A program made the translations under genes and the position numbers. The notes under the pieces are model-generated. The model did not search any database and was not told the DNA's origin. It worked only from the letters and a program-made list of their open reading frames with translations. Positions 18,386 through 26,654 of a DNA stretch of 38,442 nt are shown here, one piece after another. This DNA comes from Caldifarciminota bacterium (GTDB lineage Bacteria > Hydrothermota > Tepidihabitantia > SM23-42): contig CP070705.1 in the NCBI GenBank assembly GCA_020349965.1, forward strand, positions 2,234,518 through 2,272,959, given 5' to 3'. The stretch's first letter is position 1; every line of letters starts with the position of its first letter.

Positions 18386-18484
18386 ATGAATGATATCTCA
18401 AGACGTGATTTTATGAAGTATTGTAGTGTCGGCGCGTCAGAGTTAGTGCTCATGCCGAATATATTCTGTATAAAATTCTATTGA
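18386..18484 (+). pseudogene. Decayed duplicate of a Tat-DUF362 N-terminus
   Basis: This 32-codon frame begins MNDISRRDFMKYC and ends at TGA, 10 bases before the next gene, which begins MKDISRRDFIKYC. The two match codon by codon through about 25 residues, including the twin-arginine motif SRRDF; many differences are silent. After MPNIFC the frame loses similarity and stops. The similarity also covers about 25 bases before each ATG, so the DNA is a tandem repeat with a period of 109 bases. It is either the stump of a lost DUF362 paralogue or a local duplication of the leader. Whether the short peptide is made is unknown; it has an AAGG ribosome-binding site. Confidence 0.7.
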
Positions 18485-18494
18485 TGGAGGTCTC

Positions 18495-19814
18495 ATGAAA
18501 GATATTTCCAGACGCGATTTCATAAAATATTGCGGTGTCGGCGCACTGGGGCTGGTACTGAAGCCGAACCTGATCTACGGCAACGTACCAGATGGCCAGC
18601 GTGCGAGTGATGTAATACAATGTTTTCACGAAAATGCAACGAGCGGTTCCACGATCAATGAATCTGTTGTACAAATCATGATGGATGAATCGATAAAGAC
18701 CCTGACCGGTATCAGTAGTGTCGGCGAAGCCTGGAAATCGATCTTCCCCGGCATCACAGAGAACAGTGTGATCAGCATTAAGGTGAACACTATAAATCAT
18801 TACTTGCCTACCCATCCGCAGTTTGTCGAGCGCATCATCAACGGGCTTGTCCAGATGCCTTTTGGTGGACCGAATTTTCCGAGGAACAATGTCATCGTCT
18901 GGGACCGAACAAATACCGAGCTGATGCAGGCCGGCTACACAATCTATGACGGCAGCGATCCGGACACGGCACGCTGTTTCGGAACGAACCATTCTGGAAT
19001 CGGCCATAACTACTCAATGCCCCTCGACGTTGATGGCGTCACCAGTTATCCCAGCCGCATCCTGACCGACATGACCGATTTTCTCATCAATGCCGCAGTC
19101 CTGAAAGACCACGTCGGCGCACAAATAACCCTGACCATGAAGAATCACTACGGCTCTGTGAACAACCCCGGTCAGCTGCACAACGGCTATTCCTACACCT
19201 GTAACCCCGACATACCGGCGCTCAACCAGCAGATCCGGGATGTCATAGTACCCAACCATATCCAGAAGATCTTCATCGTCGACGCTCTCTTTGGCTCGTA
19301 TTCAGGTGGACCGAGCGGTTTTCCTAATTTTACTCCCAATAAACTACTCATGAGTTTCGACCCGGTAGCATGTGATTTTCATGGGCAACATGTAATAAAT
19401 GAAGAACGCGCCCTGCACCAACTGCCGGCACTATCTGCGCCACATATACCAACTGCTGCTGGATCGCCATACAACCTCGGCACAATGGACGTCAATCTGA
19501 TCGAGATCAATAATCCACCCGGTGTAAACGAGCTGGCCAAATCCGCGGTATCGAACGGATCCATCCAGGTCACACCGAATCCTTTCAGTAAGAGAACGAC
19601 GATATTACTTTCGGCGAACGAGCGGTCGCCGGTTTACATCGATCTGATCAACCCTGCCGGCCGTGTCGTAGATCGCATCTTTGCCGGCAGCCTCACTCCG
19701 GGTGACCATCGTATCGAATATATCCTAAGAAAGAAAGTCGCCGCCGGTAATTATTTCATTAAAGTCCACGGCAACGGAGGTAATGTCGTGAAAAAAGTAA
19801 CGATCATTAATTAG
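18495..19814 (+). CDS. Tat-exported DUF362 protein with T9SS-type sorting domain
   Basis: This 439-residue protein starts at an ATG with GGAGG 5 bases upstream. Its N-terminus holds a twin-arginine signal (SRRDFIKYCGVGALGL), so it should be exported folded. The central part (about 60-340) fits DUF362: a VISIKVN strand where KPN is usual, an HPQFVERIINGL helix, a VIVWDRT strand, a LINAAVLKDH segment and a MKNHYG segment, ending with FDPVACDFHG. The last 80 or so residues (TPNPFSKRTTI to the end) match a T9SS type A C-terminal sorting domain with the usual G-x-Y/F-x-hydrophobic ending. DUF362 has no settled function. It heads a run with a lipoprotein, a second DUF362 protein and a polyferredoxin. 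Confidence 0.82.
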   Translation: MKDISRRDFIKYCGVGALGLVLKPNLIYGNVPDGQRASDVIQCFHENATSGSTINESVVQIMMDESIKTLTGISSVGEAWKSIFPGITENSVISIKVNTINHYLPTHPQFVERIINGLVQMPFGGPNFPRNNVIVWDRTNTELMQAGYTIYDGSDPDTARCFGTNHSGIGHNYSMPLDVDGVTSYPSRILTDMTDFLINAAVLKDHVGAQITLTMKNHYGSVNNPGQLHNGYSYTCNPDIPALNQQIRDVIVPNHIQKIFIVDALFGSYSGGPSGFPNFTPNKLLMSFDPVACDFHGQHVINEERALHQLPALSAPHIPTAAGSPYNLGTMDVNLIEINNPPGVNELAKSAVSNGSIQVTPNPFSKRTTILLSANERSPVYIDLINPAGRVVDRIFAGSLTPGDHRIEYILRKKVAAGNYFIKVHGNGGNVVKKVTIIN

Positions 19815-19822
19815 GAGGTAAT

Positions 19823-20380
19823 GTGACCAGATTAGTGCAATTTGGCTTTTTAGTGATGCTCCTTGTCTTCTGCACCAGCGAAAATGGACCGACCATCATC
19901 GACGTTGTCGATCTGATTCCCGACACCGGTGACATCAGTGGTTGGGCACAGAGCGGTGAGATGGAGGTTGCGGAGAACGAAACACAACTCTGGGATTTGA
20001 TCGACGGTGCCGGCATAGTGTTCCTTGACCACGGTTTCGTGAAATGCGCGTTCCAGGAATTCAGTGGAGAGGTTCTAAGCACACCCTGCATAGTGCTCCT
20101 GCGGGCATTTGACATGGGTGACACGACCAATGCCTATGCAGTATACCATGACAACCGTCTTGAGCTCGGAGATGAAATACCCTGGACCGATACGGGACAT
20201 GCCGGAGTCGAGGCACGGATCGAAACCTCCTCGCTCTATCACAAGATCGAAATGTGGCACGACCGATTCTTCGTCGATATCACAATCACCAATGTGACAC
20301 TTGAAGCCTTGAATGTAGCGAAACTCTTCGCTCTTAATGTCTCCGACGCCATCACTCAGACGACGGCCAATCCGGAGTAG
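19823..20380 (+). CDS. Exported lipoprotein, DUF6599-like
   Basis: This 185-residue protein starts with GTG at 19823, with AGGAGG just upstream. A short signal ends in LLVFC, a plausible lipobox with Cys17. The mature part has the GW...G...y....LWDLIDGAG...F.DHGF pattern and a later AYAVYHDN segment that I associate with DUF6599, a family of unknown function often beside DUF362 genes; this assignment is from memory and moderate. It lies 8 bases after the first DUF362 gene and 4 bases before the second, so it is firmly part of this unit. Confidence 0.7.
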   Translation: MTRLVQFGFLVMLLVFCTSENGPTIIDVVDLIPDTGDISGWAQSGEMEVAENETQLWDLIDGAGIVFLDHGFVKCAFQEFSGEVLSTPCIVLLRAFDMGDTTNAYAVYHDNRLELGDEIPWTDTGHAGVEARIETSSLYHKIEMWHDRFFVDITITNVTLEALNVAKLFALNVSDAITQTTANPE

Positions 20381-20384
20381 TAGC

Positions 20385-21296
20385 ATGGATGGAATTACAC
20401 GCAGAGAATTCATCAAGATCGGCGCCGGAGCCGCGATCTTCTCGCTCCTGCCCAAGTCGCTCATCGCCACAGAAAATAATGCAGGCCCGATGATCGGCGT
20501 GGCAGAAGGCGACAATTCAAAACTTGTCCGGGCAGCGGTCGACCTGGTCGGCGGCATCGATAGGTTTGTGAAATCAGGCGACACCGTATGCATCAAGCCC
20601 AACCTCTCTTTTGCCTCGAACATCGATTGTGCTGCGACAACGAATCCGGCAATAGTGAGGCAGATGGTACAACTCTGCCTCGACGCAAATGCCTCAAGGG
20701 TCATCGTCATGGACCATACCATTCACGACGCGACGCTCTGCGTCGAACGCAGCCGCATCGAGGAGGCGATCATCGACAAGAAGGTGAGCCTCGTAACGCT
20801 GCAGCAGGAGCGCCAATATGCCGAAACCGAAGTCCCGGGCGGAGTCGAGCTCACTACGATCGGCGTCGCCAAGGCGATCCAGAACGCCGACGTGTTGATC
20901 AACATGCCGGTGGCGAAGTCGCACTCGGCTACGGGTGTAAGCTTCGGTTTGAAGGGTTTGATGGGATTGATCTGGGACCGCGGCTACCTTCACCGGGTCA
21001 ACCTCGACCGCGCAATTGCCGAGCTCGCCACGGTAATAAAACCGGATCTCACCGTAGTCGATGCAACGAAGGCCCTCACCACCGGCGGACCCGGCGGTCC
21101 TGGGAAAACGGTCATTCTCAACAAGGTCGTTGCCGGCATCGACCCTGTGGCGGTCGATTCTTACGCCGTCCGTATCGCTCAGTGGTATAAGAAATCCTGG
21201 AGTGGAAATCAGGTGAAGCATATCCGGGCGGCAGCCGAACTCGGTCTCGGCGAGATCGACACCGCCAAAATGAGAATTAAAGAAGTCCGAGTTTAG
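20385..21296 (+). CDS. Second Tat-exported DUF362 protein
   Basis: This protein of 303 residues starts at an ATG 4 bases after the lipoprotein stop. The N-terminus is a Tat signal (TRREFIKIGAGAAIFSLL). The DUF362 core is typical: CIKPNLSF, TTNPAIVRQMVQLCLDA, VIVMDHT, a MPVAKSHSATGVSFGLKGLMG stretch (shown here in part: MPVAKSH and GLKGLMG), VVDATKALTTGGP and GIDPVAVDSYA. It is closer to the family norm than the first copy and has no sorting domain. Tat export suggests a cofactor or cluster inserted before export, which is inference. Confidence 0.85.
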   Translation: MDGITRREFIKIGAGAAIFSLLPKSLIATENNAGPMIGVAEGDNSKLVRAAVDLVGGIDRFVKSGDTVCIKPNLSFASNIDCAATTNPAIVRQMVQLCLDANASRVIVMDHTIHDATLCVERSRIEEAIIDKKVSLVTLQQERQYAETEVPGGVELTTIGVAKAIQNADVLINMPVAKSHSATGVSFGLKGLMGLIWDRGYLHRVNLDRAIAELATVIKPDLTVVDATKALTTGGPGGPGKTVILNKVVAGIDPVAVDSYAVRIAQWYKKSWSGNQVKHIRAAAELGLGEIDTAKMRIKEVRV

Positions 21297-21318
21297 AGCT
21301 AGTGCCGGGGAGGCAATA

Positions 21319-22818
21319 CTGAGGGGCAAGAGGACACGCGCTATCCGTTGGCTCATTCAATTGTCCTTACTCGGCTTCTTCATCCTTGCGTTCATCCAAA
21401 CGCGATACAGCGTACCGGTCACATTTCAGAATCTATTCTTCAGATTCGACCCGCTCATCTTCATTGTCGTCAGCATCGCCTACCGTACCGTTCTCTCCGC
21501 ATCGCTGTTATCGATATCGATCATTGCCGCGACGCTCGTCTTCGGGCGATTCTTCTGCGGATTCGTCTGCCCGCTAGGCACAACGATCGACGTCTTCGGC
21601 ATTTTCTCAAGGAAAGAAGTTGGTCGGAAAACGAAACTGAAACATTTGAAATACATGATTCTGATATTTCTCGTTGTCGGAGCCATCCTCGGTGTATCAT
21701 TCCTCCACTTTCTCGAGCCACTCGTCATATTCGAAAGGTCCTTGACCCTATTCCTGCATCCTGTTGTTGCATACGTTTCCGGGCTCTTCGGTCTTGGATC
21801 TGCGAGGGTCTACACAGAATCGATGATCGCTGTCCTCGTCTTTGCCCTTATTCTTGGTCTCGACTTCATCAGCCAGAGATTCTGGTGCCGGAATCTTTGC
21901 CCGCTTGGCGGATTACTTGCCTCGATATCGAAGTTGGCTCCTTTCAAGATCATATTCGGTGAAGGCTGCACACAATGCGGCATATGCGAGAAGATCTGTC
22001 CGATGGACGCAATATCCGTCGATTCGACATTGGTTGACACCGGAGAATGCATCGATTGCCTCAGATGTATCAACGAATGCCCGCAGAAAGTCTTCACCTA
22101 CAAATTAGGACGCGCATCCTCGCCTCTCGACCTGAACCGCCGGCAATTGATCGGCGCGATCGGAACGAGCATCATCGTGGCGCCTCTTGCCAGAACTCTA
22201 CTCCACAGGAGGCTGTTGGGAACACTCATCCGGCCCCCTGGATCAATACCCGAACCCGATTTCCTCAACACCTGCATCCATTGCGGCAAGTGCATGAAGG
22301 TATGTCCGACGAACGGGCTGCAGCCGTGTATACTGGAGTCCGGAGTGAACGGGCTGTGGACTCCTAGGCTCATTTCCCGTATTGGCGGCTGTGAGAAAAA
22401 CTGCAATCTGTGCGGGCAGGTATGTCCTACCTCAGCCATCAGGAATCTTACGCCCGAGGAGAAAACTTTTGCCAAGATCGGTACTGCGGTTATCGACCGC
22501 GCACGCTGCATTGCCTGGGAACAGGACCGCGTCTGCCTCATTTGTGACGAGGCATGTCCCTATAATGCCATCAGCTCCCTCAATGAAACGATACGTGGGA
22601 CGACATTGCTCAGGCCATTTGTCGACGAGCGCATATGTACGGGGTGCGGGTTATGCGAGGCACGCTGCCCGATCGAGGGACGTGCCGCAATCGAAGTCTT
22701 CTCCATCGGCGAAGAACGAAAGCGGCGCGGTTCATACATCACGGAAGAGAAAATCCGATTGCGCGCTCTTGAGGAAAAAGAAGAAGACATACCCGCCGGT
22801 TTTATAATCGACAATTGA
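21319..22818 (+). CDS. NapH/NapG-like fused membrane polyferredoxin
   Basis: This protein of 499 residues joins two usually separate proteins. Residues about 1-200 are NapH/NosR-like, with four or five membrane segments and two CxxxCP motifs (CGFVCPLG, CRNLCPLG). Then come two ferredoxin motifs (CTQCGICEKICP, CIDCLRCINECP). At about residue 270 a twin-arginine-like segment NRRQLIGAIGTS precedes a hydrophobic stretch, and the rest is NapG/MauM-like: RPPGSIPEPDF, CIHCGKCMKVCP, CEKNCNLCGQVCP, CLICDEACP and CTGCGLCEARCP. NapGH pass electrons from quinol to periplasmic partners. A CTG start at 21319 is chosen because GGGGAGG lies 5 bases upstream; the TTG at 21361 has no such site and would cut the N-terminal basic region. 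Confidence 0.85.
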   Translation: MRGKRTRAIRWLIQLSLLGFFILAFIQTRYSVPVTFQNLFFRFDPLIFIVVSIAYRTVLSASLLSISIIAATLVFGRFFCGFVCPLGTTIDVFGIFSRKEVGRKTKLKHLKYMILIFLVVGAILGVSFLHFLEPLVIFERSLTLFLHPVVAYVSGLFGLGSARVYTESMIAVLVFALILGLDFISQRFWCRNLCPLGGLLASISKLAPFKIIFGEGCTQCGICEKICPMDAISVDSTLVDTGECIDCLRCINECPQKVFTYKLGRASSPLDLNRRQLIGAIGTSIIVAPLARTLLHRRLLGTLIRPPGSIPEPDFLNTCIHCGKCMKVCPTNGLQPCILESGVNGLWTPRLISRIGGCEKNCNLCGQVCPTSAIRNLTPEEKTFAKIGTAVIDRARCIAWEQDRVCLICDEACPYNAISSLNETIRGTTLLRPFVDERICTGCGLCEARCPIEGRAAIEVFSIGEERKRRGSYITEEKIRLRALEEKEEDIPAGFIIDN

Positions 22819-25800
22819 TTTCTTTATTAGTAATCCTTGTAAGCTTCACTCAGAAAGTTATCGCTGACAATCCGGTCATCCTCGACGGTATAGGCAGCCG
22901 TTACGCATCAGAATATGTCCTCATCACGACTCCAGCAGGTATCTACACATTCGACCGAAACGCCGAGACGTGGAAGGTCATAACAACCGCGCACGGGCTG
23001 CCGGACAACGATGTACATCTAATGGGAATCGATCAAGGCATTCTGTGGGTAGTTACCGAGCAGGGGCTTGCATCGGCCGACATTCGACTGAACGACTGGC
23101 TGACCTACCAGATGCCAGGCATGGTCAACGGCATCACCTTTGACGAAAACTATGTTTGGGTCGCGGGTGATTTTGGACTGAAGAGATTTGACAAATACGT
23201 AGAACAGTGGGAAGATATCGATACCATGCCTGCGCAGGACATCTTTTTTGACAAAAAATATCTGTGGATTGCCACCACGCAAGGGATCCGCCGATACAAC
23301 CTACAATTCGAAAGGTTCGAGGACATAACGGCGGCACCAAAGATGAATTTCTACCACATAATCGAAACAAGGTCGAAGATCTGGTTTCTGGCACATGATA
23401 TGTTCGTAGTACACGACCGGAATGCTGAATCGTGGGCCGAGCATAGTGCGTTTGATGTCGATGATTATGCAGTATTCGGCGATTCAGTATACATTGTGAG
23501 CAATAATACAGTAATTCTGTTCGATCCGAAAACAAACTCCTGGAATCCTTTTGTCGATGTCGAGGGTCTCGGGGAGATCAACGGCGTGGCGACCAATCCA
23601 CAATTCTCAAACAATATCTCTTTTGCGACAAACCAGGGTCTATTCCTTTATGACCCGCTCGAGAAGGCGCGCGTGGTCTATAACCGAGCTAACGGCATGT
23701 TCGACGACTCCATATCCGATTCCTACGAATCGTCCAAGTATATCTTTGCGATCGGACGTGAGCGCCTGCAATTCTACGACAAGGGAACGTCCATCTGGCA
23801 CGTAGAAGAATTCACCGCGACCAGGGGGATGAGAACAAAGATCCTGCGCTACGATGAAGCAGGCCTGCATCTCGATGCGGTCGAAGGAATGGATTTGAGG
23901 CTGCAAGGAAGGGCGTACTATTCGATTTCTGGAGATTTTGCGGACAGCATCGATTGGGATGACTACTCGACAATTAACCTCCGACTCATTGCGCAGCATC
24001 AGAGTAATCGAGCCCTTTCGGTGTACTACGATGACACCGATAAAGAAGACACGTTGTATGGCTTCGGATACCGTGGTCTTGAAACTGATTTCATTCATCG
24101 CATCAACGGAGGATTCATCGAATCCGAGTACTATGAGTTCGACCTGGTGCCTGGATTTTCCACCTTCGGAGCCAATCTCAAACTTCGCCATCGAGAGCAC
24201 GGACTCACGGCTCAAGGCGGCCAATTGAAGTCGAGTTACCAGAGTGATTTCTTCTACGGAAGATCCTTCGAAAAACGCGGTGCGCTGCTCGACACTGATT
24301 TCTCGAAGAATTCATTTTTCAATATTCCGGAAGCGCACCTCGTCACACGCGAAGGCACGGACACGATATTCGTCGACGATCGCCTTGCGACCACGAATGA
24401 CATCGGTACGAGAACCGGTTACATTGTGGCCGGTATTATCGGCGATTTCGACGTGATGATCAACGGTCTCGACTACTTCATCGACTATCAGGCCGGTACG
24501 CTGCAGCTCCTCAGGCCGGTTGGAGAAGACCACATCGTCGTCCTGCGCGCCGATGGTCAAGAGATCATTATTCAATCCGACTCGGTACGCGACAATACGG
24601 TCGTGAACACCTACGTGTTAGGGCCTGGCATGATTCCCGGTTCGCTCGAGCTCCGGATAACCGATACACTCGGTGCAGACCACCCTCTTAGCGAATTTGG
24701 CATAGACAATGATAATGACAACAAGGTCGATCCACAGTTCATCAATCATCGTTTAGGCTACCTCTCATTCCCGCAGCCACGACCGTTCCCGGACGAAGTC
24801 TACACTCAACAACTTCACATTTATCTTATGGACTATACTTTCACTACCCGTACAGTCTTCTATACACTAAGTAAACAGCCGGTACTGACCGGCAGCGAAA
24901 CGATTGTGGTTGACGGCGAGGAGATGATCCGCAACTACCACTACTACATAGATTACACAAACGGCAACGTTCTATTCCTCAGTGAGGAGACCGTGTCCGA
25001 CTTCAGCGAGGTTGAAATCCAGTACGTAGCCATCGAGAGAACGCGTACCGATCCTTTCTACTCGGTCCAGCCGAATATCAAGTTGACCGACAACATAAAT
25101 GTGGCTCCTGGCTATAGCTCGATCGCGGACGAAAATATCTTTCACCTTTCCGGAAAGTACCAGGGCGGAAAAGAAAGGAAATCGCTTACATTCGTGCCGC
25201 AAATCGGGATAACCGAGGACAAGGATTACGCCCAGGAATATCGACTCGTCGCGAACTATAACATGTTCACTCTTAACGCCAACTACCGCAACTTCTCAGA
25301 CCGTTTCGAGTCGTTCGGCTTGACCGAAAGGAGACACGGCTTTCTCCGGCACAGCGGCGCGATCTCGCTGGGGGTCGAACCCTTTGATCAATTACGTTTA
25401 ACTACAAACTTGAAAAAAGAGACGCTTGTCGATTCGGTTAGCAACTTGAACAAAACCGAATATATCTCCGGAAAGGTCGAATACTTGAACACCACCCTTC
25501 CCAACGGATTCCTCCTCATCGCCAGGAGCACCCTACCCGACTATGAAAACACCCGTCTCCAGGGTAGGGCTAACTATTCATTCGCGGTCGCCGGCAACAG
25601 GATCGTGCTGACCTCCTCTGCGCGCAACGATTTCTTCAATTTCGACGAAGGAAATGAGAAGAGGATATTCGAGTACACCGCTAGCGCAAACCTGGCATTG
25701 CGATTTCCAGTGGGCATCGATCTCTACACATACAATAACAACCTCTACTCCGGAGATTACCGTGAAAAGATCGAAAACGAAACGCGCGTAGCTCTGAACA

Positions 25801-26654
25801 TCGACGCAATACCGGGGTTATACTACACAGGCAACTACCAGCAGAAGAGAGAGACATTTTTCCTTCCCGACGCAAAGGATGTGTCGATAGTCAATTACAC
25901 GTACAACAATTTAAATATCGCGCCGGGACGCTGGTACGCCCCGCTGAATGTCATCAATTTTGCCTTTGGCACCGGTGAGAATTTTGACGAATATCTCGGC
26001 ACCCTGCCTCCGGACCGCGAACTCCCGTCGTTCATATTCCGTCCGATCGACAAAGATATCACCGCACTTTCTGATCTGCGCAACATGTATGCAAGAGTGT
26101 TTCTGATCCCGTTTGCCAACCTCAACGTGCAGCTGCAGCGATCGGTAAACAAAAGCGGCAGCGCCCGCTATGATACACCCATTCTCCGGCCGACCTACGT
26201 CGATGAAATAAGGGCAGAGTACGAACAAGCGCAGATCGGATTTCTTACCGCAGTTTTCAACCGGAGCGAAAGCAGGTACTATCCGACGAAGACCGCAACA
26301 AACGCATATCTCGAGTGGACAAAACCATGGTCGGGCAAGCTTAGAACGAAATTGAGCACCAACCTCAGAGCGGACATCGATGAATATCCAACCCTCCAAG
26401 CGCGCAATACCGAATCTACGGTCAAATTGGAAGCACTGTGGCGTTTTGGCGGGAGGTCCTACATAAATGTCGGTGTGGGCGGCCGGAGACAGGATAGATA
26501 CACAACCGGCGTAAGCAACTCGCTACTCCCGGGCTGCACCGTTTACCTCAATATCATAGAATTTCTGTATATGCAGTTCGACTATGAAGCGAATATTCTG
26601 CTCGGTGATTCAACAACCCATTTTGCATCCGCCAGGATCACCGGCTCCTTCTAA
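22815..26654 (+). CDS. Outer-membrane protein: beta-propeller plus beta-barrel, SprA-like motifs
   Basis: This 1279-residue protein has a signal peptide (about 1-17, cleavage after VIA). Residues about 25-340 form a beta-propeller of repeats such as LWVVTEQGL, VWVAGDFGLKRF and LWIATTQGIRRY. Residues about 350-700 hold strands and repeated YxxDYxxGxxxF units (YFIDYQAGTLQLL, YYIDYTNGNVLFL) that resemble segments of the T9SS translocon protein SprA. The remainder is rich in alternating aromatic strands and ends in ARITGSF, the aromatic end typical of outer-membrane barrels. The TTG start overlaps the polyferredoxin stop by 4 bases. SprA itself is much longer, so this is a related architecture at best. 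Function is unknown. Confidence 0.75.
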   Translation: MISLLVILVSFTQKVIADNPVILDGIGSRYASEYVLITTPAGIYTFDRNAETWKVITTAHGLPDNDVHLMGIDQGILWVVTEQGLASADIRLNDWLTYQMPGMVNGITFDENYVWVAGDFGLKRFDKYVEQWEDIDTMPAQDIFFDKKYLWIATTQGIRRYNLQFERFEDITAAPKMNFYHIIETRSKIWFLAHDMFVVHDRNAESWAEHSAFDVDDYAVFGDSVYIVSNNTVILFDPKTNSWNPFVDVEGLGEINGVATNPQFSNNISFATNQGLFLYDPLEKARVVYNRANGMFDDSISDSYESSKYIFAIGRERLQFYDKGTSIWHVEEFTATRGMRTKILRYDEAGLHLDAVEGMDLRLQGRAYYSISGDFADSIDWDDYSTINLRLIAQHQSNRALSVYYDDTDKEDTLYGFGYRGLETDFIHRINGGFIESEYYEFDLVPGFSTFGANLKLRHREHGLTAQGGQLKSSYQSDFFYGRSFEKRGALLDTDFSKNSFFNIPEAHLVTREGTDTIFVDDRLATTNDIGTRTGYIVAGIIGDFDVMINGLDYFIDYQAGTLQLLRPVGEDHIVVLRADGQEIIIQSDSVRDNTVVNTYVLGPGMIPGSLELRITDTLGADHPLSEFGIDNDNDNKVDPQFINHRLGYLSFPQPRPFPDEVYTQQLHIYLMDYTFTTRTVFYTLSKQPVLTGSETIVVDGEEMIRNYHYYIDYTNGNVLFLSEETVSDFSEVEIQYVAIERTRTDPFYSVQPNIKLTDNINVAPGYSSIADENIFHLSGKYQGGKERKSLTFVPQIGITEDKDYAQEYRLVANYNMFTLNANYRNFSDRFESFGLTERRHGFLRHSGAISLGVEPFDQLRLTTNLKKETLVDSVSNLNKTEYISGKVEYLNTTLPNGFLLIARSTLPDYENTRLQGRANYSFAVAGNRIVLTSSARNDFFNFDEGNEKRIFEYTASANLALRFPVGIDLYTYNNNLYSGDYREKIENETRVALNIDAIPGLYYTGNYQQKRETFFLPDAKDVSIVNYTYNNLNIAPGRWYAPLNVINFAFGTGENFDEYLGTLPPDRELPSFIFRPIDKDITALSDLRNMYARVFLIPFANLNVQLQRSVNKSGSARYDTPILRPTYVDEIRAEYEQAQIGFLTAVFNRSESRYYPTKTATNAYLEWTKPWSGKLRTKLSTNLRADIDEYPTLQARNTESTVKLEALWRFGGRSYINVGVGGRRQDRYTTGVSNSLLPGCTVYLNIIEFLYMQFDYEANILLGDSTTHFASARITGSF

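Follow-up and report, generated by a model that had tools for sequence, protein, structure and literature searches.

Gene content and conservation of the locus

Five closely spaced genes were identified on the + strand of the window (the whole stretch of DNA analysed, 38,442 nt of a genome of candidate division WOR-3/Stahlbacteria). The first gene (18495..19814) encodes D362A, a DUF362 protein with a Tat signal (SRRDFIK) and a C-terminal sorting domain of type A of the type IX secretion system (T9SS) at about residues 359–437. It is followed by genes for a small lipoprotein of the DUF6599 family with lipobox ..LVFC17 (19823..20380); for D362B, a second DUF362 protein with predicted Tat export, the start MDGITRREFIK and a LarA-like fold in its model (20385..21296); and for NapHG, a NapH–NapG fusion polyferredoxin (21319..22818). 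The fifth gene (22815..26654) encodes BigOM, with a signal peptide, a PorZ-like N-terminal beta-propeller, a SprA_N-like region and a probable outer-membrane beta-barrel.

The earlier note had described a unit of four tightly packed genes. All four proteins that it reported are present on the + strand, with intergenic gaps of 8, 4 and, if NapHG begins at CTG 21319, about 22 bases. The unit does have a fifth gene, the BigOM gene, whose start and the NapHG stop share a 4-base overlap. The ORF tool placed the NapHG start at TTG 21361; CTG 21319 restores a first transmembrane helix found in relatives and is the probable start. This CTG is preceded by GGGGAGG, a Shine-Dalgarno-like sequence.

The unit was earlier said to start at 18386. 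This position belongs to a 32-codon ORF on the + strand (18386..18484; MNDISRRDFMKYCSVGASELVLMPNIFCIKFY, also MNDISRRDFMKYCSVGA...), which shares 73% identity over 26 aa (72% in DNA) with the D362A leader; D362A itself begins at 18495. Tandem D362A genes occur in relatives, with two genes at loci L093, L099, L102 and L103 and two or three copies in several. Judged from its sequence, the ORF is what remains of a second, tandem copy of D362A that immediately preceded the intact gene.

A search across 84,980 species genomes detected relatives of D362A in many phyla besides the host group. All five genes are found in the same order in WOR-3 genomes of the same genus, of other genera and of more distant families, with varying flanks. 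The DUF6599 gene is present in 22 of the 147 genomes of the phylum and in most of these 22 adjoins the genes for D362A and D362B; genomes G076, G084 and G092 carry only a different, longer DUF6599 gene. The BigOM gene is present in 16 of 18 related loci.

Subsets or reordered versions of the module were found in Zixibacteria, Latescibacterota, KSB1, Bacteroidales, LCP-89, Poribacteria, Desulfobacterota, SAR324, Chitinispirillaceae and Anaerolineae, in loci that were picked by D362A similarity, so that the survey is not unbiased. Profile searches of the loci detected the order D362A–DUF6599–D362B followed by BigOM in Latescibacterota, KSB1, Bacteroidales and Zixibacteria, and the same three genes followed by NapHG, without BigOM, in Desulfobacula, other Deltaproteobacteria and SAR324. 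NapHG is absent from the operon at L106, L109, L115, L118 and L120; the polyferredoxin is thus not obligatory beside the DUF362 pair. The order is shuffled in Chitinispirillaceae (L153), Anaerolineae (L160) and Ignavibacteriaceae (L117), and such reordering with linkage retained argues for a functional unit. At the Anaerolineae locus a gene for aldehyde ferredoxin oxidoreductase, of a tungsten enzyme family, lies between NapHG and D362A (L160:5587-7509).

The co-occurrence on which the earlier note had made its proposal depend was thereby found, with gene order kept in several WOR-3 families and partial or reordered in many phyla. That the five-gene unit is real and recurs beyond chance is well supported, as are the module and the predicted locations of its products. 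The open-access PMC literature on DUF362, DUF6599 and their accession numbers yielded no description of such a pathway; the earlier note knew of none for this gene set.

Predicted export and fold of the DUF362 proteins

Both DUF362 assignments made earlier hold, with D362B the stronger member of the family (155.5 bits) and D362A scoring 53.2 bits against PF04015 (Pfam gathering cut-off 24 for both). The Tat leaders hold as well: D362A matches the Tat signal profile TIGR01409 with 20.4 bits, above its cut-off, and the start of D362B is given above. D362A matches in addition the T9SS type A sorting domain TIGR04183 with 29.6 bits (curated cut-off 23). The first AF2 model of D362A (pLDDT 60) gave usable structural matches for the sorting domain only; Foldseek paired this domain with the T9SS cargo 8glk_D and with PorU 6za2.

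The genome of the window encodes TatC, PorU (451.7 bits) and SprA (SprA_N, 62.8 bits) and contains 76 matches to the T9SS sorting tail at E ≤ 0.001. Since D362A combines a T9SS sorting domain with a Tat leader, it is predicted to reach the cell surface via Tat and then T9SS, and is probably displayed there. The earlier note had recognized Tat export of the DUF362 proteins and missed the sorting domain and hence the predicted surface end of D362A.

D362A resembles T9SS cargo in its C-terminal type A sorting domain and in the presence of PorU and SprA in the host. It differs in its leader, which has a Tat motif and is not of the Sec type; T9SS cargo is described as Sec-exported in a review (PMC9251779). 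Among the 17 other T9SS-tail proteins of the window genome with a readable start, none has a twin-arginine motif. Across D362A relatives the RR pair is kept almost everywhere.

The sorting tail of D362A occurs in those phyla that have T9SS; it is missing from Desulfobacterota, SAR324, Poribacteria, Armatimonadetes and a member of Anaerolineae, where most of the proteins end a few residues past the DUF362 domain. SprA scored above 50 bits in 11 of 13 genomes with a D362A tail versus none of 11 genomes without it (Fisher P = 3e-5, with the grouping and the 50-bit bar chosen after tails and scores were seen, and with L153 placed in the tail-bearing group despite a weak tail score). Weak SprA matches of 27–30 bits in Poribacteria were scored as negative because they are possibly BigOM relatives; the Poribacteria locus L138 has a BigOM relative and a D362A without the sorting domain.

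Among 94 D362A sequences K96 and K216 are invariant, and K204, H206 and H229 nearly so; four cysteines are conserved in WOR-3 and are not all kept elsewhere. A 1071-aa ORF at L114:9980-13195 with a D362A score of 805 bits apparently contains several DUF362 units in one protein.

The invariant residues of D362B are K71, N73, K178, H180, K190 and H203 (303-aa numbering). Its AF2 model has pLDDT 92.2, and all 18 PDB matches below E 0.001 are of LarA type. With TM-scores (query) of 0.39–0.50 these matches indicate a fold shared with LarA at best and not a close relative; on the strength of the model, D362B is likely a LarA-fold enzyme. The invariant pair H180-x9-K190 of D362B and the near-invariant pair H206-x9-K216 of D362A are spaced as in the LarA motif HFFAGFSGGRK, whose lysine tethers the nickel-pincer nucleotide in LarA. 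Further identities with this motif (G+4, S+6, G+8) occur in just 20 of 39 D362B sequences and are not claimed as shared. Profile comparison by hhalign gave no match between DUF362 and LarA (Prob 0.3); therefore the link is based on fold and motif spacing. DUF362 and LarA_N belong to the same Pfam clan, CL0471, according to PMC11770544. Direct sequence searches of D362A, D362B and BigOM against the PDB returned nothing useful.

Besides the lack of hhalign similarity, D362B differs from LarA by its predicted Tat export and by the third histidine, which is at +13 from the lysine in D362B and at +16 in LarA. Some other DUF362 proteins include ferredoxin motifs in the same chain: two in the window genome (L003 and L004) have a built-in pair of [4Fe-4S] motifs each, in keeping with a role of DUF362 proteins as partners of iron-sulfur clusters. 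Both LarA and LarC are encoded in the window genome, whereas LarC does not always accompany the DUF362 module; it was not found in three module-bearing genomes, G109 (95% complete), G113 (97%) and G014 (89%). A nickel-pincer cofactor is for this reason probably not required, and unlikely to be general. LarA genes near the module in G077 and G080 were set aside as coincidence, with another gene, seryl-tRNA synthetase-like, standing between.

Membrane and outer-envelope components

The NapH/NapG fusion named by the earlier note is apparent from profile matches to consecutive halves of one protein: residues 9–249 match NapH (91 bits) and residues 278–449 match NapG (92 bits). Both scores are below the curated equivalog cut-offs, so NapHG is a relative and not the nitrate-reductase protein itself. 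The NapH part has transmembrane helices, two CX3CP motifs and two [4Fe-4S] motifs predicted to be cytoplasmic; it is followed by an internal twin-arginine motif with a transmembrane helix and by four [4Fe-4S] motifs predicted to be periplasmic. The motif cysteines are conserved in 17–18 of 18 sequences and also in other phyla. The twin-arginine motif stands directly before the last transmembrane helix; of 23 sequences, nearly all have RR here, and L090 and L134 have KR.

The same NapH–TM–NapG architecture, with a twin-arginine motif and clusters on both sides of the membrane, is known from the polyferredoxin of delta proteobacterium MLMS-1 (Q1NSB0), for which experiment showed that Sec and Tat are needed and that the NapG part is outside (PMC5449189). 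NapHG is accordingly predicted to be an inner-membrane protein of the dual Sec–Tat type, dependent on Tat. The operon described here differs from NapGH systems: it is without nitrate reductase genes, and the partners are DUF362 proteins, a DUF6599 protein and an outer-membrane protein, a context that the excerpted text of PMC5449189 does not describe for the NapH–NapG fusion.

The small lipoprotein likewise proved to be as reported, with 39.7 bits against DUF6599 (Pfam gathering cut-off 27) and a lipobox cysteine, Cys17, kept in 19 of 19 sequences. Fusion proteins at two other loci (L107:1466-3514 and L110:4590-6500) combine DUF6599 with a LamG domain and a T9SS sorting tail, from which it follows that DUF6599 can itself be a surface protein.

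BigOM has a leader-like N-terminus, and its propeller matches PorZ_N with E 6.9e-5, below the Pfam cut-off. Residues of about 568–768 match SprA_N of the T9SS translocon in hhalign (Prob 97.5, E 5.5e-12), whereas a search with the SprA_N Pfam profile gave no match to BigOM at the gathering score. As profile–profile comparison is the sole link between the two proteins, BigOM is considered SprA-related and not SprA. The C-terminal residue is phenylalanine in 15 of 16 sequences, a signature by which BigOM is a probable outer-membrane beta-barrel. While it has a SprA_N-like region and a PorZ-like propeller, BigOM is shorter than SprA (1279 aa versus about 1800 for SprA in relatives), is encoded in a redox operon and, as at L138 of Poribacteria, also occurs in a lineage whose D362A has no sorting tail. 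In one relative, NapHG and BigOM are in a single open frame (L092:12814-16335; also L080), which may be a sequencing error or a real fusion.

Proposed function and alternative explanations

We propose, with about even chances of being right, that the five genes form an envelope redox module in which NapHG connects the quinone pool with LarA-fold enzymes in the periplasm and at the surface. Seated in the inner membrane, NapHG would have two [4Fe-4S] clusters on its inner and four on its outer side, and would exchange electrons between the periplasm and the quinone pool (or a cytoplasmic ferredoxin). D362B would receive its cofactor in the cytoplasm, leave it folded by Tat and act in the periplasm as the redox partner of the NapG domain. 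D362A would be a second LarA-fold enzyme, also exported by Tat; where a type IX secretion system exists, its C-terminal sorting domain would send it further, to the cell surface. Anchoring at the outer membrane, and transport of a substrate or protein across it, would fall to the DUF6599 lipoprotein and BigOM.

Sequence or model shows which genes are present and that they are conserved together, the export signals, the cluster motifs, the fold of D362B and the association of the sorting domain with SprA. We infer that electrons pass between NapG and DUF362, and likewise their direction, the cofactor and substrate, and what BigOM does. DUF362 proteins as partners of an iron-sulfur donor, close to the earlier suggestion of terminal redox partners, are plausible in light of the [4Fe-4S] motifs of L003 and L004 and of the fold of a cofactor enzyme, LarA; direct electron transfer, plausible between NapG and D362B, is the part that we infer. 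What mainly troubles the redox reading is that some operons lack NapHG and that no carrier leads to the surface protein, as the operon encodes no cytochrome or other carrier from NapG. The D362A cysteines kept in WOR-3 and not all kept elsewhere also count against it, as does the Poribacteria locus L138 with a BigOM relative and a tail-less D362A. An extracellular electron conduit of the porin–cytochrome type was rejected: in the WOR-3 loci that were scanned, no multihaem cytochrome adjoins the core genes.

More speculatively, and rather improbably, DUF362 as a whole could be a family of LarA-fold oxidoreductases with hydride-type chemistry on a cofactor at the invariant Lys/His, passing electrons to [4Fe-4S] clusters and not back to the substrate as racemases do. 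Here the clusters would be those of the NapG domain, leading to the quinone pool, and one of the enzymes would travel folded to the surface via Tat and then type IX. The module looks like a real, undescribed redox pathway of the cell envelope in many little-studied bacterial phyla. The open-access literature on the widespread DUF362 family, as far as excerpted, gives no function for it; since the module is kept together across phyla, DUF362 can be assigned partners and a location, along with a candidate active site, which makes its function testable. A Tat leader and a T9SS tail on one protein would amount to two successive export steps for surface enzymes that are already folded and loaded with their cofactor.

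The operons of several phyla that keep D362A, DUF6599, D362B and BigOM without NapHG could also point to uptake and conversion, with D362A and the lipoprotein capturing a small extracellular substrate, BigOM importing it and D362B converting it in the periplasm; NapHG would be an accessory electron outlet or inlet in some lineages. The DUF6599–LamG–T9SS tail fusions (L107, L110), suggestive of surface recognition, agree with this. However, Desulfobacterota and SAR324 have the opposite pattern, NapHG kept and BigOM absent, and no substrate-binding family was identified among the window's own proteins; we consider the explanation unlikely. Less likely still is repair or maturation in the envelope, in which quinol electrons would pass through NapHG to DUF362 proteins repairing or assembling outer-membrane or T9SS proteins. 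BigOM does resemble the T9SS parts PorZ and SprA, and MsrPQ, discussed beside NapGH in PMC5449189, is a precedent of a Tat-exported periplasmic repair enzyme fed by the respiratory chain. Yet the DUF6599 marker is absent from near-complete sister genomes bearing PorU, e.g. G072 (99%) and G079 (96%), and the module occurs in lineages where SprA was not detected.

Two further explanations appear very improbable to us. As nickel-pincer (LarA-type) racemases or epimerases, one periplasmic and one at the surface, the DUF362 proteins would perform no net redox reaction and NapHG would be a bystander; the LarA-like fold, the His-x9-Lys spacing and the LarA and LarC genes of the window genome are in favour, against which stand the absence of LarC from G109, G113 and G014, the nil sequence similarity to LarA by hhalign and a polyferredoxin that a racemase does not need. 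The metal handling suggested by the earlier note, in which periplasmic and surface-exposed DUF362 proteins would bind or insert a metal, could draw on the conserved His and Lys and is no more credible: nothing tested favoured it, no known metal-binding motif or metal transporter was found in the module, and the conserved DUF362 residues are spaced as in the LarA cofactor motif.
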